DNA of 64,000 nucleotides from Fluviicola sp. (GTDB lineage Bacteria > Bacteroidota > Bacteroidia > Flavobacteriales_D > Crocinitomicaceae). The notes beneath the pieces are model-generated. The model made no database searches. It saw nothing but the letters and a program-made list of their open reading frames with translations, and was not told where the DNA came from. The position numbers were made by a program, and so were the translations under genes. Of this stretch, positions 2,010 to 61,262 are shown piece after piece; the stretch's first letter is position 1, and each line of letters begins with the position of its first letter. Location: NCBI GenBank assembly GCA_029866325.1, contig JARWZO010000031.1:1-64000 (forward strand), written 5' to 3'.

Positions 2010-3215
2010 TTAAAAAGTACGACGCAGACTTAATTGACCATTCAGTGGCAATAAACGCTGTTCACCGGCATACATCGTTGAATTGAACGGTTTCAAAATA
2101 TCAACATTCATTCCCAACCCAGCGTACCAGTTTGGCGCAAGTGAACGCCAATAAGTTGCTCCGATTTCCATTGTAAGGGTTTTCGCATTGCTTATCTTTC
2201 CAAATGTTTGTTCCGAACGCACCACTACTTCATTTTGCGTTTCCTGCTGATTGCCTGAAAATGCTGTTTGGAAACCCGGAGTCACTGTTGCAACAATTGA
2301 ATTTCTACCTGATTCATACCCCATGGAAACCGGCATTTCAAACGAATACAATTGACTGTATTTCGTATCAATACGTGTACTGTTAGATGGGTAAGTAGTA
2401 TACAGGATGTTTTTGGTAAAATCAACCCGCATATTCGCACCGAAGGTAAACACCATCCGATCCAGTTTTTTGTACAAACCACCACCAATGGTATAGAAAT
2501 GTACCAAATCGGATTGGCCAACTACGTGTTGCGCTGATTGACCGATTCCGGCTGTGGTTTGAAGATAGAAACGAGCAGGTTTCGGGAAGTTGATGGATTT
2601 CGCTGCACAAGTCTTATAAGTGTAACAATCTGTAGGTAACTCATTGCTATTTGCTGTAAAAACAAGTGGATTACCAAACTCTACATCATTAGCAGGAAGC
2701 CTATCAACAATTACCAACTCTTCCACTTGTTGATTTACTGAAAAACTTGGTAAAAGCGACGTATTCTCTATCGTTATTACATCTGTTAACACTTGACCGG
2801 AAGGTGTCATTCTAACAATACCATTCTTGGTATGCATTGCATTTCCGCAACTTGCTTCATCTGTCCCTGAAAATCTGCCTTTAGAGGACACCGGGTCATT
2901 TACAGAAACCGTTTCAACAATCACTTGTTCAGCAGCTGATTTTCTATCAACTGAAGGTTTGTTCGCATACATTTTCGATTTTGCAACCAATGTATGGTTT
3001 GTTTGACCTGATTGGTTCAAATATAAAAACACACCACCAACCAACAACACCAGCGTAGCAGCGCCACTGGCAATCCACCAAACCCCTGCTTTTTTGCGTT
3101 TTTGCTCAGGTAGCATTGCTTCCATTTCAGCCCAAAACGATTCCTGAAAGGCAGCAGGCTCGGGCGCTTTAGCTCCTTTGAACAATTGGTCAATATCCTG
3201 ATCGTTCCAACTCAT
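2010..3215 (-). CDS. Membrane protein paired with an ECF sigma factor; barrel-like C-terminus
   Basis: The protein has 401 residues from the ATG at 3215. That ATG overlaps the sigma-factor stop as ATGA, which is why I prefer it over the TTG three codons upstream. Residues 1-42 are polar and cytoplasmic (MSWNDQDIDQLFKGA), and one membrane segment spans about 43-67. The periplasmic part has a low-complexity linker, then a C-terminal region from about 215 rich in alternating aromatic and polar strands with a PVSMGYE motif, as seen in outer-membrane beta-barrel-like proteins of Bacteroidota. Translational coupling to the sigma factor suggests an anti-sigma or sensor role (inference). No zinc-finger anti-sigma motif is seen. 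Confidence 0.85.
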   Translation of the reverse strand: MSWNDQDIDQLFKGAKAPEPAAFQESFWAEMEAMLPEQKRKKAGVWWIASGAATLVLLVGGVFLYLNQSGQTNHTLVAKSKMYANKPSVDRKSAAEQVIVETVSVNDPVSSKGRFSGTDEASCGNAMHTKNGIVRMTPSGQVLTDVITIENTSLLPSFSVNQQVEELVIVDRLPANDVEFGNPLVFTANSNELPTDCYTYKTCAAKSINFPKPARFYLQTTAGIGQSAQHVVGQSDLVHFYTIGGGLYKKLDRMVFTFGANMRVDFTKNILYTTYPSNSTRIDTKYSQLYSFEMPVSMGYESGRNSIVATVTPGFQTAFSGNQQETQNEVVVRSEQTFGKISNAKTLTMEIGATYWRSLAPNWYAGLGMNVDILKPFNSTMYAGEQRLLPLNGQLSLRRTF

Positions 3216-3787
3216 ATAGCACAACGTTTTTCATTCAACAATTCTATTTCCTCCAATCTGTCGCGCAACTGTTTACGTGCGGTAGATAAATGCCACTTCG
3301 AGGTTCCCTCTGTAATTTCGAGCAAATCACCGATTTCTTTGTGATTGTATCCGTCGATTACATACAAGGTAAATACATGGGCACTGATCGGTGGTATGGT
3401 GGTCAGCAGCTGCATAATGGCCTGATAATTCATGCTTTCCTCTCCTGCATTCGAAGCATTGGTAGCATACAATTCCAATTCTCTATCGGTGTCTTTTGCA
3501 AAAATGAACGTTTGATGGTTCTTGTTTTTGCGGTATTCGTCGATGAGCACATTGACCATAACACGCTTTGACCAGCCTGCATAATTGATTTCTTCCAGGT
3601 TAACGGAAGCCAAACCGTTGATGATTTTCAAAAAGCCATTGTTAAATGCAAAACGAGCGTCTTCCTCATTGGAATAGTAGCGCATACAAACGCCCATGAG
3701 AACGCGATACGTATACTCGTAGAGTTGTTTCTGTGCACGACGATCATTCTTTGCACATGCTTCCAGTATTTCAGATGTTATGTGCAT
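3212..3787 (-). CDS. ECF-type RNA polymerase sigma factor (sigma-70 family)
   Basis: This protein would direct RNA polymerase to a small regulon. From the ATG at 3787 it has 191 residues; a longer frame opens only with a TTG at 3826. Region 2 lies at about 25-90 (with RYYSNEEDARFAFNNGFLKI) and region 4 at about 130-180, with a helix-turn-helix around GYNHKEIGDLLEITEGTSK. The family is typical of Bacteroidota ECF factors. It is followed with a 4-nt overlap by a one-pass membrane protein, the arrangement expected for sigma/anti-sigma pairs. Target genes cannot be told from the sequence. Confidence 0.93.
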   Translation of the reverse strand: MHITSEILEACAKNDRRAQKQLYEYTYRVLMGVCMRYYSNEEDARFAFNNGFLKIINGLASVNLEEINYAGWSKRVMVNVLIDEYRKNKNHQTFIFAKDTDRELELYATNASNAGEESMNYQAIMQLLTTIPPISAHVFTLYVIDGYNHKEIGDLLEITEGTSKWHLSTARKQLRDRLEEIELLNEKRCAI

Positions 3788-50908: not shown

Positions 50909-53900
50909 ATGATGAAAAAAGCTCTACTTTTAGTGTTAGCATTGGCTAGCATCGGTTATTACCGCGCACAACTTTCTTATACATTTACAGCCGTTGGTGG
51001 CACATACACTGCGAATGCGACACCAACCGTACTTCATTCCAGTGGTGTTGATGATGCTGTATCCACATCTACTGCAATTGGCTTTAACTTTGTACTCGGC
51101 TGTACAACCTATACCACTTTTTCAGCTTCATCAAACGGATGGTTAGGTTTAGGGTCTGCCGCCTATTTTTCAGATGCTTGGAATGATTTGAACACAACCT
51201 TTGATCGTCCGAAAATTGCTCCTTTATGGGATGACTTAGCTACCGGAAGTGGTGGTAATGTCAATTATAAATTGACCGGAACAGCTCCAAACAGGGTCTT
51301 GACGGTTGAATGGAAAGAAATGGAATGGCGCTATACTGCAACAACTTGGGCCTTATCTTTTCAATGTAAATTATACGAAACAAGTAATCGAATCGAGTTT
51401 GTCTATACCAGAAATGGAAATGCAACTGCCAACACAGATTTTCCTGATGCAAGTATTGGGTTAGCGGGTCCTGTTTCCGGACAATTCTATTCATTGGATG
51501 GCACAGGCGCAAGTCCACTGGCTTCAACAGTTACAGAAACAACCACTCTAAGCACAAAACCGGCAAACGGACAAATTTACCGCTGGGACAATACCAGTGT
51601 TTTTTGTTCTGGAACACCCACTGGTGGAACAAGTTCTGCAAGCCCGGCTTCAACTTCGTGTGCAACACTTACAACTACGCTTACCGGCGCAGGTATGTCA
51701 ACCGGATGCGGATTAGCCTATCAATGGCAATCTTCGCCCAACAACAGTACCTGGACAAATATTGTGGGAGCAAATAGCGTCACATATTTGGCTACTAACT
51801 CTGCCAATACGTATTATAGATTGGTAACAACTTGTTCTGGAAGCGGATTGAGCGCTAATGGATCAAGCACATTGGTAACATTTACCGGTACATCACCTGT
51901 AAACGACTTGCCATGTAACGCAACAGCCATGACATTGGGTATTTCCGCATCAGGAACCAACGAATGTGCAGGAAGTGCTTCAGAACCTGCAGCACCAGGT
52001 TGTTGGTGGAATGGTGGTATAAATACAGTTTGGTATACCATTGTTGCTCCTGCTTCGGGAACTATGAAAATCAAAACGACCATCTTATCGAGTGGAACTA
52101 TCCTACAGAATACCCAAATTGCCGTTTATTCAGGTACATGTGGAAGTTTGACTTATGTCAATTGTAATGATGACGCTCCAATTTGCGGAGGCTATACACC
52201 GCTAAACTCTGAACTTTCATTAACAGGACTTACGCCCGGAGCCACTTACTTCATTGTGGTTGACGGATATTACGATCAAGTAGGTCAATTTGAGATATTG
52301 GTAATCGATGGTTCTTCAACCTTCCCGCTTGTTCCCGGACAAGACTGTGGCGTATCCTTCCCGGTTTGTAACTCTACCATGACAATCGGTAACCCGGGTT
52401 ATCAATCAATCGGCGGACAATGCGACAACACCGGAGCAGCTGTTTCGGAATGTACGAGCGGAGAAGCCAATTCAGTTTGGTACAACATGACCATCGGTAG
52501 TGCTGGAACGCTCAACTTCGATATCATTCCAAACGACTACGGAAATCCAAACCCGATTACAGGACAAGCAAATCCATTATATACAGGAGTTTATGATGAA
52601 ACAGATTATGACTGGGTATTGTGGAAGTTAACTGGATCCGGAGCTACAACATGCGCGCTTATCATGAGTAGCGGTGGTAATGCTTCAGTAAGATGTAATT
52701 TTAGTGGACTAGGTGTAACCGGTTGTTCTACCTCAGGAAATGCTCCGGCTGCATATGGAGCAGGATTTGATCTTGCCTATGAAACAGGCCCCGCAGTTGT
52801 TGCAGGCGAAACGTATGTATTGGCCATTCACAATTTCTCCAATTCAACATCCGGATTCACGTTGCAATTCCCGTCTTCGGGTTCACCCGTTGCATTTACA
52901 CCAACCACAACGCTTTATTGGACAGGAGGAGCCAACACAACTAGTGCTACTACATCCAGTAACTGGGGTGGTTGTGGTATTCCTACCTGCGGATTGAATG
53001 CTGTAGTAACAGCGGCTTCTTCCTTCCAACCTGTATTGACTCCCGGTTCTTACAATGTAAACGACATCACTATAAATGCCGGTTCTACCTTGACCATTCA
53101 AGCTGGTGCTACCTTAAACGTTTGCGGTAATTTCACCAATAACGGAAACTTGGTTTGTCAAGCAGGATCAACTGTGGTCTTTGTAGGTTCAGGTACACAA
53201 ACCATTTCAGGATCGTTGGTAGGTGTTGACGGATTCCACCACATGACCGTAAACAAAACTACCGGTACCGTGGTTGCAAACAACAACATCGACATCAAAG
53301 GAAACTTCCTTACCAACAACGGAACCAGTATCTTCAACTCAAACAACCGATACATCAAAGTTGGCGGAAACTTTACCAATAATAACGGTAACACAACCTA
53401 TACAACTACAGGTACTACCGGAACTTTGGAATTTTTCGGTTCGACTGCTCAGACCTACAATCAGGGAGCGTCTCAATTGGACTTAAACTTTGTGCGAATG
53501 AATCATACCGGTCCGGGAGTAGACTTGGCAACCAATATGTTTATCAAAGCAACCACGGGTTCATTGACGCTTACTGCAGGAAAAATCAATACAGCTGCCT
53601 TTAGAGTAGATGTTGCCAATGGAACTCCAGCTTGTGTTACAGTAGGAAATGCAACGAGTTACGTAAACGGAAACTTATACCGTACATTGAGCGGTGCAGC
53701 AGGTTCTTACGATTTCCCTTTAGGGACTTCAACCTTGTACGAACGAGCAAATATCAATTTCACTACTGCTACTACCATTCCTCGTTTGCAAAGTCGTTTC
53801 GATAGCTGGGGAGCACCTGCAAACCATATCAATGGGATGTCGGAATGCGCCACAACGTACAACATTCTGGATGAAAACATGGGCTTCTGGACCATCAACG

Positions 53901-54676
53901 CTTCAGCCAATCCAACAAGCGGAACCTATAACACAACCCTTTACTGTAACGGAGCAACCAATACAGCAGGTGTTGCAGCTTGGACGGTTGAGAAATCACA
54001 AAACAGTGGTGTATCATGGATTTTAAATGGTACGTGCGACCCAACTTCTACCGCGGCTATTGTGAAACGCAATGGAATGAACGGTTTCAGTTTGTTTGCC
54101 GCCGCGCAAGCTACCAACCCACTTCCTGTTGAATTGTTAGGCTTCTACGGTTATGAAGACGAGCGTATCAATTACCTGAAATGGACAACTGCCTCTGAGA
54201 TCAACTCTGATTTCTTTGATGTGGAACGCTCTAAAAACGGAATCGAGTTCTACTTCATTGAACAAGTAGATGCAGCTACAAACAGCAATCAGATTATCAA
54301 CTATAATGCGACGGATGAAAATCCGTATTACCCGGTGACGTATTACCGTGTAAAACAAGTTGACCTGAATGGTGATTATTATTACACCCCGATCATTGCT
54401 ATCGAAAGTTCATCGGAAGAACCATTGACGGTTCACCAAATATATCCGAATCCGACGAAAGAAAAATTGTTTGTTGAGTTTTCTTTAGAGAAATCGGAAC
54501 ATGCTGTAATCGCCATCACGGATATCTCCGGAAAAGTGATTCACCAAGTAGATCTTGATTGTGCAACCAGCAACGTTGTTGAATTTAACAGCAAACAATG
54601 GCTACCGGGTATGTACCTGATTCGCATTACGACAGATTCAGGATTAACAACCATGAGTCGTGTAGAAAAACTATAA
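50909..54676 (+). CDS. Large T9SS type A surface protein
   Basis: The 1255-residue protein starts with a signal peptide (1-20, ending YYRA). The N-terminal domain (about 25-230) resembles beta-sandwich domains with WLGLG and APLWDDL motifs. An Ig-like segment, two bacterial pre-peptidase-like regions (NSVWYNM, TYFIVVDGYYDQVGQFEI) and a repetitive beta-helix-like stretch (GNFTNNG.L) follow. The C-terminus has a second fold (PVELLGFYGYEDERINYLKW) and a type A sorting domain (IYPNPTKEKLFVEF to SRVEKL). It is probably a surface adhesin. A terminator lies after it. Confidence 0.92.
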   Translation: MMKKALLLVLALASIGYYRAQLSYTFTAVGGTYTANATPTVLHSSGVDDAVSTSTAIGFNFVLGCTTYTTFSASSNGWLGLGSAAYFSDAWNDLNTTFDRPKIAPLWDDLATGSGGNVNYKLTGTAPNRVLTVEWKEMEWRYTATTWALSFQCKLYETSNRIEFVYTRNGNATANTDFPDASIGLAGPVSGQFYSLDGTGASPLASTVTETTTLSTKPANGQIYRWDNTSVFCSGTPTGGTSSASPASTSCATLTTTLTGAGMSTGCGLAYQWQSSPNNSTWTNIVGANSVTYLATNSANTYYRLVTTCSGSGLSANGSSTLVTFTGTSPVNDLPCNATAMTLGISASGTNECAGSASEPAAPGCWWNGGINTVWYTIVAPASGTMKIKTTILSSGTILQNTQIAVYSGTCGSLTYVNCNDDAPICGGYTPLNSELSLTGLTPGATYFIVVDGYYDQVGQFEILVIDGSSTFPLVPGQDCGVSFPVCNSTMTIGNPGYQSIGGQCDNTGAAVSECTSGEANSVWYNMTIGSAGTLNFDIIPNDYGNPNPITGQANPLYTGVYDETDYDWVLWKLTGSGATTCALIMSSGGNASVRCNFSGLGVTGCSTSGNAPAAYGAGFDLAYETGPAVVAGETYVLAIHNFSNSTSGFTLQFPSSGSPVAFTPTTTLYWTGGANTTSATTSSNWGGCGIPTCGLNAVVTAASSFQPVLTPGSYNVNDITINAGSTLTIQAGATLNVCGNFTNNGNLVCQAGSTVVFVGSGTQTISGSLVGVDGFHHMTVNKTTGTVVANNNIDIKGNFLTNNGTSIFNSNNRYIKVGGNFTNNNGNTTYTTTGTTGTLEFFGSTAQTYNQGASQLDLNFVRMNHTGPGVDLATNMFIKATTGSLTLTAGKINTAAFRVDVANGTPACVTVGNATSYVNGNLYRTLSGAAGSYDFPLGTSTLYERANINFTTATTIPRLQSRFDSWGAPANHINGMSECATTYNILDENMGFWTINASANPTSGTYNTTLYCNGATNTAGVAAWTVEKSQNSGVSWILNGTCDPTSTAAIVKRNGMNGFSLFAAAQATNPLPVELLGFYGYEDERINYLKWTTASEINSDFFDVERSKNGIEFYFIEQVDAATNSNQIINYNATDENPYYPVTYYRVKQVDLNGDYYYTPIIAIESSSEEPLTVHQIYPNPTKEKLFVEFSLEKSEHAVIAITDISGKVIHQVDLDCATSNVVEFNSKQWLPGMYLIRITTDSGLTTMSRVEKL

Positions 54677-55414: not shown

Positions 55415-56176
55415 ATGAAATTGTTTCATCGCATTCTTGGAGAAGGACAACCTTTGTTGATTCTTCACGGTTTATTCGGTCATTCAGACAATTGGCAAAC
55501 GCACGCCAAAAAACTGGCAGAATACTATCAGGTAGTTTTAATCGATCAGCGCAACCACGGACATTCCGATTGGAGTGACGAATTCTCGTATGATCTATTG
55601 GCCGAAGATTTGCACGAACTCATCAGCGATTTGGGTTTACAGAAAATCATTCTTTTGGGGCATTCCATGGGTGGAAAAACAGCCATGCGTTATGCGCAAC
55701 TGCATCCTGAATTGCTGGAAAAACTCATCGTGGTTGACATGGGAGTGAAAGCCTATCCGCCACACCATACCGAAATTCTGGAAGGGCTGAGCAAAGTCGA
55801 TTTAACGATTGTAAAAAGCCGTAGTGAAGTAGAAGCTATTTTGTTGCCTTATGTTCCTGTAGACGGAACGCGCCAGTTTCTGATGAAAAACCTGTATTGG
55901 AAAGACAAAACGCAACTGGCCTGGCGCATGAATGTTCCCGTATTGGAACGCGAAATGGACGCAATCTTGGCAGCCATTCCAACAGACGAAGTATTGATTC
56001 AAACCTTGTTTATTCGCGGCGAGCTCTCCAACTACATTCGCGACGAAGACATTCCAGACCTCGAAGATCAATTCCCCGATTCGGATGTGATCACGGTTCC
56101 CAATGCCGGTCACTGGGTTCATGCCGAAGCACCTGAAGCATTTGTTAACGCGGTGCTGGAGTTTTGTTTGCGGTAA
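55415..56176 (+). CDS. Alpha/beta hydrolase (YbfF-like esterase)
   Basis: The 253-residue protein has HG oxyanion motif (LLILHGLFGHSDNW), the DQRNHGHSDW motif typical of YbfF-type esterases, nucleophile elbow GHSMGGKTAM, and catalytic His in NAGHWVHAEAPEAF. It ends VLEFCLR. The last 32 bp overlap the 3' end of the convergent secreted-protein gene. A copy of the last 14 codons recurs at 57094-57138. It is soluble, with no signal peptide; the substrate is unknown. Confidence 0.92.
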   Translation: MKLFHRILGEGQPLLILHGLFGHSDNWQTHAKKLAEYYQVVLIDQRNHGHSDWSDEFSYDLLAEDLHELISDLGLQKIILLGHSMGGKTAMRYAQLHPELLEKLIVVDMGVKAYPPHHTEILEGLSKVDLTIVKSRSEVEAILLPYVPVDGTRQFLMKNLYWKDKTQLAWRMNVPVLEREMDAILAAIPTDEVLIQTLFIRGELSNYIRDEDIPDLEDQFPDSDVITVPNAGHWVHAEAPEAFVNAVLEFCLR

Positions 56177-56939
56177 GTGCTTTTTTACTAAGTTGATATC
56201 CAATAGTGATACTCGTTTCATTTCCTAAATACGCATCATCTTTTCCGATACCTATTCCCCAATACTCACTTCTAGAGTGATCTGTAGTAGAGGAGGCTAA
56301 AATATTGAAATGGAAATCATCTCTAAATCGCGGGGTTTTAAACGCAAAAAATGAAACAGATGGGTGAATCCAAACTCGGCCAATGTTAATTCGTGGACCT
56401 AAAGTAACTCCGAAATAGGCGAAAATATTTTTGGTTTTAAGTACCCTGAATGGTTCTGTACTTACAGAAATACCTATTTTGTGATAATAATAGTTCCACT
56501 CTTTGTGCCGGATTAACCAATCGGTTTGAACGAAAGCTCCAAAATACAATTGAAGTTTAGAATTTCTGCCAAACAATCGACCAGCTTGTAATCTTGTCCC
56601 TAAATAATTCTGTTTTACTTCTGCACTACTAGTATATGATACTAGCTGAAAGTCACCCCCACACCATGTATAAGTAGTTGAATTCTTGTCATAACTCGTC
56701 CTTTTATTAGTTGAAGCAATGTTCACGCTAAAAAACCATTTTTTCAATTGTTTACTAACACCTAATTCTAACGGAAAAGTCATTGTATAGTGTCTCGAAT
56801 AACCATAATCAAAGCTTTTGTTTCTTTCAAATAACGGCAATGGATACTCTGTGTGATAACGAGTTCCCGCAGTTACAAACAGTTGAGCGATTGTATTTTT
56901 GCAACAAAGAAGTAAGAAAATGATAATGGCGTATTTCAT
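56145..56939 (-). CDS. Secreted outer-membrane-type protein, tandem paralogue 1
   Basis: The 264-residue protein has a signal peptide (1-18, ending NTIA) and alternating strands typical of an outer-membrane barrel (KKWFFSVNIAS, then NYLGTRLQAG, FGAFVQTDWLI, ITIGYQLSKK). No family is recognised. It is paralogous to the gene at 57107-57889; both share QTDWL and the tail NKTPAP. It is convergent with the esterase, overlapping by 32 bp, the same overlap as between its paralogue and the esterase remnant. Confidence 0.78.
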   Translation of the reverse strand: MKYAIIIFLLLCCKNTIAQLFVTAGTRYHTEYPLPLFERNKSFDYGYSRHYTMTFPLELGVSKQLKKWFFSVNIASTNKRTSYDKNSTTYTWCGGDFQLVSYTSSAEVKQNYLGTRLQAGRLFGRNSKLQLYFGAFVQTDWLIRHKEWNYYYHKIGISVSTEPFRVLKTKNIFAYFGVTLGPRINIGRVWIHPSVSFFAFKTPRFRDDFHFNILASSTTDHSRSEYWGIGIGKDDAYLGNETSITIGYQLSKKALTANKTPAPR

Positions 56940-57093
56940 TGTTATGCTATTAAAAAAGAAATATAGCTAATAATCACTGCAACTAGCATTAGATTTCACA
57001 AACGCACGTTTTTTTTTGACTAACGTATAGGTTCATCAAACGAACGGTCTTTTGACCTTATAGAAAAACGCTTTAATCTAAAAACCCTATGTA

Positions 57094-57138
57094 CCGAAAG
57101 CCTTGGTTAATTTGGTGCTGGAGTTTTGTTTGAGGTAG
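57094..57138 (+). pseudogene. Remnant of the esterase gene 3' end
   Basis: The frame reads PKALVNLVLEFCLR and a stop, compared with PEAFVNAVLEFCLR and a stop at the end of the esterase gene (56132-56176). Twelve of 14 positions are very close or equal. It lies antisense to the 3' end of the paralogue at 57107, with the same 32-bp overlap as the intact pair. The rest of the gene is missing. Confidence 0.85.
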
Positions 57139-57889
57139 GGACTTTTTTGCCAAAACGATAACCAATGCTGATGCCACATTCATTGGCAACATATTGACTT
57201 AGTATTCCCAACGAATTAACAGCATAAAACGATTCATCGAAGGCATGTGGCCAGCCATCGGTAGTACCGCTTATCACGGTATTGATGACCCGAGGTTCCT
57301 TGTAAAAACTAAGACCAAACTGAATTTCAGCGTAAAACCGTGGCAAAAAGTAGAATCGTGATTTGATCAATACGTTCCAATAGAAATACTGATCAACTGC
57401 GACAGCTGCATCAGGAGTTCCATGATTATAAGGGAAAGGATAGGTAGTCGTCTCTGTATAGTTAGATTCGGTTTCCGAAACCAGCCAATCAGTTTGAACC
57501 GATGCTCCTATTAACAAATTGAATCGCTCTTTATGATTGATTACATAATCGACGCCAATTCTGCAACCGACATAATTCAAGGCGACATCTACCGAACGTT
57601 TTGTACTGTACCATCCATTAGAACTTCCAAAAGAACCTTGCATATTTGTTGTCCAACTCGAATTAAGTGATTCTTCAAAAGTTGATTCTGTAATGGCCGC
57701 ATGAACGTGAAACCACTTCGATTGCCAGGAACCTCCTACTCCCCAATTAGCATACGACGTAAATGGCGTATCCGTATCCGAGAAAAATCGATTCGAATTT
57801 CGTTGAATGAATGTATGTACTCCAAACTGCGCAGACAAATCGCTAGAAAGCATCAAAAAGGCAATGAAGGCTAGAATATATCTGTTCAT
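57107..57889 (-). CDS. Secreted outer-membrane-type protein, tandem paralogue 2
   Basis: The 260-residue protein has a signal peptide (1-20, ending SDLSA) and barrel-like strands (SKWFHVHAAIT, NYVGCRIGVD, IGASVQTDWLVS, ISIGYRFGKK). It shares with the gene at 56145 the blocks NY.G.R, QTDWL and the C-terminal NKTPAP, but is otherwise well diverged. It is an older tandem copy, made together with the esterase tail. Its neighbour upstream, in the same direction, is a TonB-domain protein gene 65 bp away. Confidence 0.78.
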   Translation of the reverse strand: MNRYILAFIAFLMLSSDLSAQFGVHTFIQRNSNRFFSDTDTPFTSYANWGVGGSWQSKWFHVHAAITESTFEESLNSSWTTNMQGSFGSSNGWYSTKRSVDVALNYVGCRIGVDYVINHKERFNLLIGASVQTDWLVSETESNYTETTTYPFPYNHGTPDAAVAVDQYFYWNVLIKSRFYFLPRFYAEIQFGLSFYKEPRVINTVISGTTDGWPHAFDESFYAVNSLGILSQYVANECGISIGYRFGKKVPTSNKTPAPN

Positions 57890-57953
57890 ATCAAGAGTAT
57901 GATAAAGTTATCTGAAATAGTTGGAAGAACATTCGCATCATACTGTAATTGAT

Positions 57954-59096
57954 TTAAGGCAGTTTAAACGCCACAGGCAAGTTAAAAACCGAATTGACTG
58001 GTTTTCCACCAATTTTACCGGGTTTCCATTTCGGCATTGATTTTACCATTCGAATGGCTTCTTGGTCACAATCATCGCAATCAGGAACGCCTCTTAACAC
58101 TTTTACATTCGAGATATTACCTGTTTTACTCACAATAAACTGCAAAAAACATTTCCCTTCTAATCCTTGCTCTATAGCAACTTCAGGGATTTTCAGGTTG
58201 GCATCAATGAATGCTTTTAAGGCAGTCATTCCTCCTAGAAATTCAGGCGATTCTTCAACATAAGTGTGGACCACATCATCTGACACCGGTGGTGGTGGCG
58301 ATGGCATGGGTACTTCTTCAAATCCATCTGCTTCTTCATAATCCAAGTTAGACCAATCCATTTTCGGTTGCTTTTCGTTTGGAAAGACCTCCGGAAAAAC
58401 GGTACTATACTGCTCATCGAAACCTTTAGGACCATTCTTAGCGAAGTTATCTTTGGCGATCTGCAAAACTTGTTCTAACTCATGCTGTTTTAATTCAAGA
58501 GCTGCTGTTTCAATGCGCCATTTTTCTTCTTCGCTTTTCAACCAGACACAATCTTCTTTAAACAGTGAAAAAAAGCGAGGTAGTTGCTGATTAAACAACG
58601 AATATTGCCCTATTTTACCATTCATTTCAACAATTGTCTTTGAGAGTAACTCGTTTTGCTCGCTAACGTTAAGATTATCCAGACTGAGATCAAAAGATCG
58701 TTCTCTAATCATATCCAATTCCTCATATTTTTGAGAAAGCTTTTCAAACACTTCGCGCTCGCTAGGAAGATTGAGCAGTTCAACGGATTGAATTGTAAAT
58801 GTGAGTGTCTTGTCGATTCCCAACAATGCACTTTTTTGAAAAAGGGTTATTGTTTTTGCTTTTGCTTCTGTAACTTCTTTTAAAACAATAGAATAAGAAC
58901 GAATAACTTCAGATCCTACTTCACCGAGTTGTAGCAATTCTTGGTTAGAAGATGCATACAATCTTGCCAACGAATCATGCTTATGGAGCTTTGAAGCATA
59001 TTCCTGTTTCAGTAGTTTATTCGTTTTTCGGGCGCTTTGACTTGTTCCCGCAAACGGAAGCACACAAAACAGGAGTAAAAAGATCGATTTCGGCAT
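57954..59096 (-). CDS. Secreted TonB C-terminal domain protein
   Basis: The 380-residue protein begins with a signal peptide (1-19, ending FAGTS). A helical, coiled-coil region follows at about 25-220, then a Pro-rich linker (EVPMPSPPPPVSDD) and a TonB C-terminal domain at about 285-380 (FLGGMTALKAFIDANLKIP, then GKCFLQFIVSKTGNISNV, PKWKPGKIGGKPVN). TonB proteins normally couple the ExbBD motor to outer-membrane receptors through an N-terminal membrane anchor; here the anchor looks like a cleavable signal. So it may be periplasmic and not a classic energiser. Neighbours are the two paralogues downstream. Confidence 0.85.
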   Translation of the reverse strand: MPKSIFLLLFCVLPFAGTSQSARKTNKLLKQEYASKLHKHDSLARLYASSNQELLQLGEVGSEVIRSYSIVLKEVTEAKAKTITLFQKSALLGIDKTLTFTIQSVELLNLPSEREVFEKLSQKYEELDMIRERSFDLSLDNLNVSEQNELLSKTIVEMNGKIGQYSLFNQQLPRFFSLFKEDCVWLKSEEEKWRIETAALELKQHELEQVLQIAKDNFAKNGPKGFDEQYSTVFPEVFPNEKQPKMDWSNLDYEEADGFEEVPMPSPPPPVSDDVVHTYVEESPEFLGGMTALKAFIDANLKIPEVAIEQGLEGKCFLQFIVSKTGNISNVKVLRGVPDCDDCDQEAIRMVKSMPKWKPGKIGGKPVNSVFNLPVAFKLP

Positions 59097-59126
59097 TTTG
59101 GTAAATTTTGATTTTGTAGTATCAGC

Positions 59127-59180
59127 TTTTGTGGGGTCGCGATCACTTGTCAGCCTTAGGCTGATCGCGACCCCACAAAA
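59127..59180. repeat. Palindromic element with a 19-bp perfect stem
   Basis: The arms 59127-59145 and 59162-59180 (TTTTGTGGGGTCGCGATCA and its complement) pair perfectly. The loop holds GTCAGCCTTAGG, shared with elements at 35208 and 43513. No T-run follows on either side, so it is a repeat element more than a plain terminator. Confidence 0.8.
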
Positions 59181-59192
59181 AAACCTTGGTTA

Positions 59193-61262
59193 TTAGTTTT
59201 GATCCAATTTCTTTACCATCGTCAGGATAGTAGCAATTCCAACCAAAGGCTGATCGGTATCGTCTAACATTTCCACCAACCATTTCACCACTCCGCGTTG
59301 GATCAGTGTTTTCGGATCGGCTTCGTTTGGTGTAACATCAGAACTTATTTTCTCTTTGCAGGTAAATCGAATATGGATTTTCGTTCCTGCATAGACAGGT
59401 TTGGTAAAACGCAATTCATCGATACCGTAATTCAACAATACCGGATTAATCACGTAACTATCCACAAACAAACCTGCTGAAATGCTCATGATAAAGTACC
59501 CGTGCGCAACCTGCTCATCAAACATGGTTCCCTCAAAATTCGTATCGCGTTTGTGCGCATAGAAATTGTCTCCACTCAACGCAGCAAAAGCATCGATATC
59601 ATCTGCTGTGATCAATCTGCTTTCAGTAATCAACTGATCCCCCACATTCAATTCTTCAAAATGCTTCTTGAACGGATGAAGAGCATCAATCTTTCCTGCT
59701 GCACCTTGCTGGTATTGCTGTGTAATCTCTGTAATCGTTGTCGGGTGACCTTGAATAGCCGTTCGTTGCAAGTAATGCAACACACCGCGTTTTCCACCCA
59801 TTTCTTCTCCGCCTCCTGCTCTACCCGGACCACCGTGCGTTAGCAATGGCATCGGTGAACCGTGACCTGTACTTTCTTTGGCGCAGTCTTTATTCAATAC
59901 CATGATTCTACCATTCATGCAAGCAGCTTCTACTACAAACTCGCGCGCTTCTTTGTCATCGGCTGTTATAATAGAAGTCACCAACGAACCTTTGCCCATT
60001 TTGGTCAATTCGATAGCATCGTCGAGTGTTTTATATGGCATAATGGTTGAAACCGGTCCAAATGCTTCGATGGTATGCACATCTTGTTTGTCGAAAGGCT
60101 CATCGTTGCGGAACAAAATCGGCGAGAAAAACGCCCCTTTGTCTTTATCCGCTCCCACCACATCAAACGTATCCAAACTTCCGAATACCATTTGTTGAGA
60201 CAACGCCAATTGCTCTACAGAGGCGCGAACGCGATCAACTTGTAAACGCGATACAAGTGAGCCCATGCGCACACCTTCAACCGAAGGATCACCGATTTTT
60301 GTAGACCCCAAACGTGCCGCAACGGCTTGCTGTACTTCCTCCAGGTAATTTTCCGGTACCATGATTCGACGTACAGCCGTACATTTTTGCCCGGCTTTCA
60401 CCGTAATTTCTTTCGTTACTTCCTTCACAAACAAGTCAAACTCTTCTGTTCCCGGAGCAGCTTTCATCCCTAGTACCATGGCATTCAGGGAATCTGCTTC
60501 TAGGTTAAACGGCACCGATTCCTCAATCAAGCGTGGGTGTGCTCTCAGTTTTTTTCCTGTGTGGGCGCTACCGGTAAAAGTCACTACATCCTGCGAAGTA
60601 ACATGGTCAATGATTCCGCGACCGAAACCGCTTACCAATTGCAAGGCGCCTTCGGGCAAAATCTTCGAATCGATAATGTCTTTTACCATCACTTCAGTTA
60701 GAAAACTTGTTGCCTCAGAAGGTTTCACCACCGCAGGTACACCGGCCATTAAGTTCACCGCAATTTTTTCGAGCATTCCCCAAATCGGAAAGTTGAATGC
60801 ATTGATGTGAACGGCAACACCTTGCTTGGGTACCATGATATGATATCCGATAAACGTTCCGTTTTTTGATAAAGGAGCTGCTGTTCCGTCAACATAATAA
60901 GGTAAATCGGGAAACTGACGTCGGAGCGATGCATTGGCAAACAAGTTTCCGATTCCGCCTTCGATATCGATCCATGAATCGACCTTGGTGGCACCTGTCC
61001 AGGCACTGACTTGGTAATACTTATTTTTCTGTTCCATCAGAAACAACGCAAGCGCTTTCAGCATTTGTCCGCGTTCCTGAAACGTCATCTTACGCAGTGT
61101 GGACCCACCGATTTTTCGTCCGTAATTCAATACTGCTTCAAAATCGATTCCGGCACTTGATACCGACCCGATCTGATCACCCGAAATGGCATTATAAATA
61201 GTTGATTCCGTTCCTTCGCCTGCAACCCATTGTCCACAGACATAATTTTTCACTTCTATCAT
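59193..61262 (-). CDS. paaZ: Phenylacetate degradation bifunctional protein PaaZ
   Basis: PaaZ opens the ring of oxepin-CoA by its hydratase part and oxidises the aldehyde by its dehydrogenase part. The 689-residue protein has an aldehyde dehydrogenase domain (about 1-510) with catalytic Cys in KAGQKCTAVRRI (near 292) and Glu in PFNLEADSLN (near 253). A MaoC-like hydratase domain (about 530-689) carries Asp and His in LSGDNFYAHKRD. No other paa gene lies in this window. A full -33/-7 promoter is seen upstream. Confidence 0.93.
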   Translation of the reverse strand: MIEVKNYVCGQWVAGEGTESTIYNAISGDQIGSVSSAGIDFEAVLNYGRKIGGSTLRKMTFQERGQMLKALALFLMEQKNKYYQVSAWTGATKVDSWIDIEGGIGNLFANASLRRQFPDLPYYVDGTAAPLSKNGTFIGYHIMVPKQGVAVHINAFNFPIWGMLEKIAVNLMAGVPAVVKPSEATSFLTEVMVKDIIDSKILPEGALQLVSGFGRGIIDHVTSQDVVTFTGSAHTGKKLRAHPRLIEESVPFNLEADSLNAMVLGMKAAPGTEEFDLFVKEVTKEITVKAGQKCTAVRRIMVPENYLEEVQQAVAARLGSTKIGDPSVEGVRMGSLVSRLQVDRVRASVEQLALSQQMVFGSLDTFDVVGADKDKGAFFSPILFRNDEPFDKQDVHTIEAFGPVSTIMPYKTLDDAIELTKMGKGSLVTSIITADDKEAREFVVEAACMNGRIMVLNKDCAKESTGHGSPMPLLTHGGPGRAGGGEEMGGKRGVLHYLQRTAIQGHPTTITEITQQYQQGAAGKIDALHPFKKHFEELNVGDQLITESRLITADDIDAFAALSGDNFYAHKRDTNFEGTMFDEQVAHGYFIMSISAGLFVDSYVINPVLLNYGIDELRFTKPVYAGTKIHIRFTCKEKISSDVTPNEADPKTLIQRGVVKWLVEMLDDTDQPLVGIATILTMVKKLDQN

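Follow-up and report, generated by a model that had tools for sequence, protein, structure and literature searches.

The window analysed in this study is a stretch of 64,000 nucleotides from Fluviicola sp. of the Crocinitomicaceae (assembly GCA_029866325.1, contig JARWZO010000031.1, positions 1 to 64,000 of the forward strand). At the locus considered here the plus strand carries an intact esterase gene of the alpha/beta hydrolase type (55415-56176), the product of which matches the Pfam family Abhydrolase_1 with an E-value of 1.1e-29. The nearest named model is the PRK10673 esterase, and NCBIfam model NF007954 is matched with an E-value of 6.2e-53, yet under the cut-off of that model. The end of the gene, delimited by alignment and frame reading as 56126-56176, is the functional esterase tail and the first of two repeat copies. 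Gene A (56145-56939, minus strand) encodes a protein of 264 residues and overlaps the esterase by 32 bp. Its 5' region (56940-57087) reaches up to the junction with the second copy, called tail' in the following (57088-57138, plus strand), a relic of the last 16 esterase codons and their stop. Gene B (57107-57889, minus strand), a paralogue of A with 29% amino acid identity, overlaps tail' by 32 bp as well, and this second overlap zone, 57107-57138, now codes on the minus strand only, where it gives the end TSNKTPAPN of B. The right-hand neighbour of B encodes a TonB C-terminal domain protein (57954-59096, minus strand; Pfam TonB_C, E-value 6.4e-16), and beyond it, likewise on the minus strand, lies paaZ (59193-61262), the interval between esterase and paaZ being 56177-59192. 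A scan of the locus for promoters and terminators gave no more matches than shuffled sequence did. Elsewhere in the window, 50909-54676 presumably encodes a large secreted protein, the end of which we take to resemble a type IX secretion sorting domain.

Each of the two paralogues has a signal peptide, as judged by eye, and is probably a beta-barrel protein of the outer membrane. A matches PF13568 (OMP_b-brl_2) with an E-value of 0.058 and 13.9 bits, below the cut-off of 27; B matched no Pfam family, and neither protein matched any in NCBIfam. An AlphaFold2 model of B, of low confidence (mean pLDDT 44), has one N-terminal helix and eight strands, and the search of solved structures returned three matches, all viral capsid proteins (best E-value 0.26), which are taken as chance.

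The repeated esterase tail

The preliminary description of this DNA had reported that the esterase tail at 56132-56176 recurs at 57094-57138. The two segments are identical at 36 of 45 positions without a gap, and in 57113-57133 the second copy agrees with the first at 19 of 21; the recurrence extends, in frame, to 56126-56176 and 57088-57138. A repeat finder pairs 56124-56231 with 57086-57193 (108 nt, 71% identity, offset 962 bp), and the best local alignment of the two regions covers 75 nt with a score of 65, far above the maximum of 35 reached in 300 dinucleotide shuffles. The 18-mer GTGCTGGAGTTTTGTTTG occurs exactly only at these two places in the 4.68-Mb genome, with one further place at two mismatches. 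The similarity goes on beyond the 45 nt in both directions, across the end of the antisense gene and into esterase codons.

Read in the esterase frame, the second copy gives YVPKALVNLVLEFCLR and the first EAPEAFVNAVLEFCLR, each followed by a stop, which confirms VLEFCLR plus stop in both tails. In the frame of tail' a TAA stands at 57079-57081 and no ATG follows downstream of it, so the second sense copy is not a gene, as had been claimed: tail' is a dead esterase end. The earlier statement that each tail lies antisense to the 3' end of one of the two paralogues is right in coordinates, strands and frames, while the overlap that it called identical is identical in length but not in sequence, the zones of A and B agreeing at 27 of 32 positions.

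The two copies share their orientation and a common register, and the similarity is not confined to one gene, which is the picture of a segmental tandem duplication. A copy of the esterase tail together with the antisense gene, with one breakpoint inside the esterase gene, is supported in this respect. On the right, the limit of the copied unit is no longer recognisable, because no clear similarity is left upstream: in 20 comparisons of the region from A to tail' (56940-57088) with the DNA upstream of B or with TonB DNA no clear similarity was found, and the two p-values below 0.05, namely 0.020 with the TonB gene of the window and 0.045 with locus L034, are about what chance would give. Old decay would hide such similarity.

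The locus in related genomes

In the nearest relative, G011, the gene order is esterase, X, TonB gene and paaZ, with a single gene X in the place of A and B (locus L031; esterase at 2943-3704, X ending at 3673). X is the orthologue of B, with 58% amino acid identity; its overlap with the esterase is again 32 bp, and it ends in NKTPAPR. The window DNA from tail' through B to the TonB gene aligns end to end with the esterase tail, X and the TonB gene of G011, so that the sole close relative with the gene has a flank homologous to that of the second paralogue. The esterase and PaaZ are 94% and 97% identical in G011; in G004, which comes next within the genus, esterase identity is down to 78%.

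Across 59 genomes, B had matches at an E-value of 0.001 or better in its own genome and in G011 only, and A in its own genome and, among the 58 relatives, only to X of G011. A search for X in 14 genus genomes found it in two. With a profile of A, B and X, nine distant matches were obtained in 8 further genomes among 240 genomes of the family, while a pattern search for homologues in wider genome contigs, a set in which close kin of the window may be absent, gave 43 matches, none of them related. An esterase-like match was present in all 59 genomes searched, weak in G002, G028 and G058, from which a true esterase orthologue may be missing.

Two side observations concern G011. The TonB-type protein between esterase and PaaZ is just 33-36% identical to its counterpart there; in a tree of TonB proteins the window and G011 sequences group together (support 0.72, 36% identical), which is uninformative on the duplication. 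In X itself the apparent signal peptide is followed at once by an in-frame TAA (L031 4381-4383); X may be decaying as a young pseudogene, or the TAA may be a sequencing error.

Phylogeny and age of the duplication

Five distant homologues rooted the tree, which was built after trimming 11 residues from the C-terminus of A, B and X; the outgroup omits L158, which is short and has a different end, and three of the nine profile matches. The rooted tree ((B,X),A) has a log-likelihood advantage of 31.2 over both rivals, with an AU p-value of about 0.0001, and none of 60 simulations under the (A,B) tree reached the observed advantage, the maximum being 2.1. The same tree came out best in all 13 variants, in which aligner, model, columns and outgroup were changed; its advantage lay between 7 and 41, and was 12 when only gap-free columns were used. 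Counted without an outgroup, 79 sites are shared by B and X only, 19 by A and B only and 10 by A and X only. The distance of A from each outgroup is about that of B and of X, so A is no fast-evolving offshoot of B. Because A branches outside B and X, A and B parted before the split from G011, and G011 has probably lost A. The preliminary description had proposed to look in relatives for the state before the duplication; G011 has a single copy, but by this tree it probably does not represent that state. The tandem duplication that the description had proposed is upheld as a copy with a breakpoint in the esterase, but is older than the simple reading had it.

The age can also be approached from the relic. 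Outside the overlap, tail' is identical to the functional tail at 14 of 21 positions and to the G011 tail at 13 of 21, which corresponds to a drift of about 0.4-0.6 changes per site under a one-parameter model. Had tail' been free since the split of A and B as dated by the protein clock, 1.1-1.4 changes would be expected, by simple arithmetic from the tree branch lengths, with a log-likelihood lower by roughly 2-4. For comparison, the divergence between G000 and G011 at fourfold sites is 0.58 in the esterase and 0.75-0.77 in paaZ, half of it per lineage. Judged by these 21 sites, a small sample, the relic seems to be of a somewhat later date than the protein clock gives for the split. The functional tail beside A agrees with G011 at 30 of 32 positions inside the overlap and 19 of 21 outside; being so close, it looks native, which argues against a foreign origin of that tail.

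Origin of the overlap

The esterase ends in [VLIF]-L-x-[FY]-x-[LI]-R in all 80 named loci. Where at least 400 nt of flank were available (77 loci), no antisense ORF of at least 100 residues overlaps the esterase stop, and in 36 such an ORF ends within 100 nt of it. The motif NKTPAP is common to A, B and X, and it is absent in every frame from the six distant homologues inspected among the nine profile matches (L155-L160), none of which has an esterase within about 1.5 kb of flank. Four of these six (L155, L156, L157 and L160) stop at or just after the apparent last strand; in L159 the protein carries a separate C-terminal tail, unrelated in sequence, and the end of L158 is different again, so that an end without such a tail is not universal in the family.

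Since the esterase end is conserved and has no antisense overlap in the 77 loci, and since NKTPAP is absent from the six distant homologues, A, B and X probably acquired their ends by overprinting on the esterase: the esterase end is old, and translation into its antisense strand most likely gave the three proteins their last residues. The observations have the form of a 3' extension, that is, extra residues missing in six homologues and read into an older convergent gene, with L159 having an unrelated tail. A, B and X each share 19-25% amino acid identity with the distant outgroup homologues. If the ends were overprinted, B formerly lay on an esterase tail, of which tail' would be the remainder.

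Constraint in the overlap zone

It had further been proposed that the overlap zone stayed conserved on both strands while the paralogues diverged. Compared with the G011 tail, tail' is better kept inside gene B than just outside it, with 29 of 32 positions against 13 of 21 identical, so that 3 positions have changed inside and 8 outside (Fisher p=0.017, an optimistic value in that the boundary between inside and outside was picked after the match had been seen). Among codons for the same residue in B and X, 7 of 8 are identical in the overlap and 72 of 127 over the aligned gene, so synonymous codon identity in the overlap is not clearly raised. The better preservation of tail' inside B thus stands as an observation, while for an extra constraint the evidence is weak. 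Selection on the C-terminus of protein B is compatible with these data but not proved by them.

In overlapping genes the same bases are constrained by two functions, which makes such genes difficult to analyse. With one overlap under both genes and one under the antisense gene only in the same genome, the constraint on each strand becomes comparable, although the power of such a comparison is small with about 32 bases and one close relative. In a tentative reading, possible but rather doubtful, the duplication would have freed one copy of the two-strand zone from its sense gene and the antisense frame alone would have kept the zone, so that the overprinted NKTPAP extension would have become useful to an outer-membrane-type protein.

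A second duplication in G001

In another genome, G001 (Fluviicola sp. isolate C_No_T20_C_bin.34), a tandem repeat starts in the same esterase tail with a step of 227 bp, and 212 of 221 alignment columns (96%) are identical (L033, turned over, 3090-3536; also L075). The unit has its other end within the final codons of the antisense TonB gene, and the junction shares ATGCA, found in ATGCAGTTTTG of the esterase and in ATGCAACTTTG of the intact TonB gene. The copies differ at several places and are therefore hardly an assembly echo; the event is recent, is independent of that in the window and lies at the homologous place. This is the only clear repeated tail in the 80 named loci, and the same genome supplies the one clear case among the 12 genus loci. 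Partial tail matches in L042 (15 nt, above the 95% shuffle level and below the maximum) and in L088 and L092 (16 and 14 nt, barely over the shuffle maxima) were counted as chance.

The interval between esterase and paaZ measures from 139 bp to 5.5 kb in the 12 genus loci (L031-L042) and holds 0 to 4 TonB-type genes. Some of its ORFs may encode a REP-type transposase (L038 and L040), and others, in L042, a toxin-antitoxin pair. In the Fluviicola group this interval stands out as a site of repeated duplication.

Discussion

The explanation that we consider probable is that of an ancestral overprinted gene, a tandem duplication of tail and gene, and a later loss of A in the G011 lineage. An ancestral gene of the outer-membrane type, convergent to the esterase, would have lost its own stop, so that translation continued into the opposite strand of the esterase tail and about nine residues (TSNKTPAPR) were gained through overprinting. 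Next, tail and gene would have been copied by a tandem duplication with one end in the esterase tail, possibly through microhomology, as is observed just in the independent G001 event. The left copy, A, would have remained on the real esterase, and the right copy, B, would have kept the dead tail' under its 3' end. The two would have diverged, with selection perhaps keeping the end of B, and the G011 lineage would later have lost A, conceivably by recombination between the two tails; this loss is an assumption from one close relative. The local tandem duplication of G001, beginning in the same esterase tail, counts for this explanation, and the moderate conservation of the relic outside the overlap and the lost upstream similarity of A and B count against it.

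The main rival, which we regard as unlikely, is a recombination between diverged esterase-A and esterase-B loci near the tail homology, whereby A and B would be xenologues and tail' the displaced esterase end of the recipient. It would account for a distance between A and B of about 3.8 times that between B and X by branch lengths, yet with a tail' that looks released nearer the G011 split, and it accords with a gene content of the esterase-paaZ interval that varies greatly among relatives. However, an arrangement of esterase and A was met in no searched genome, only X in G011 matching A among the 58 relatives, and the six distant loci checked lack an esterase in their flanks; moreover, the functional tail beside A does not diverge from that of G011, although the junction could lie inside the overlap.

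A duplication after the G011 split, by which G011 would keep the earlier state and A would have evolved very fast, is a good deal less probable and strongly disfavoured. The single gene of G011 with the same overlap, the merely moderate decay of the relic, and the excess of sites at which A and B agree against X over those at which A and X agree against B (19 to 10, p=0.14) speak for it, but the rooted tree, the simulations and all the variants reject it, and the outgroups are not more distant from A than from B.

A reading in which the esterase tail serves for site-specific integration, with the A segment as a small cassette inserted between the two tails, is very improbable and was rejected. 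Direct repeats of a gene 3' end do flank that segment, and the esterase tail is repeated in a second species too, G001; but A, and no integrase, is the sole sizeable ORF between the repeats, the similarity runs past the tail into the genes themselves, and the G001 copy is a plain tandem duplication with its other end inside the TonB gene. Chance similarity, or a C-terminus conserved within the antisense protein family alone, to which the NKTPAP common to A, B and X might point, can for practical purposes be dismissed, given the shuffle test, a match that passes the stop of B into esterase codons in frame, and the absence of NKTPAP from the six distant homologues.

Comparison with known systems

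A literature search, which included papers on Fluviicola, found no description of this locus. Under the preferred reading, a duplicated overprinted gene, the locus appears to be a clean fossil left by an ordinary gene duplication and no new kind of system. It is also a small clear case of a protein whose C-terminus is encoded on the opposite strand of a neighbouring gene.

Tandem gene duplication in bacteria can proceed through microhomology or illegitimate recombination. The locus resembles it in the short head-to-tail segment with an arbitrary breakpoint in a neighbouring gene, and the G001 junction shares ATGCA; unlike it, the event in the window is apparently old, and its junction homology and upstream similarity are no longer readable.

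Overlapping genes have a high plasticity, according to one report (PMC4161906). Convergent overlaps can arise by 3' extension after loss of a stop codon, as a study of overlaps above 60 bp describes (PMC2478687), and the 3' ends of A, B and X, which read 32 bp into their convergent neighbour with residues absent in distant homologues, would be of this kind; 32 bp is shorter than the overlaps of that study, and here the overlap would later have been duplicated and one copy freed from its sense gene. As in the overprinting of antisense reading frames in E. coli (PMC5810103, PMC4683798), new coding sequence would have come from the antisense strand of an older gene, but in the form of a C-terminal extension of only about nine residues instead of a whole new gene.
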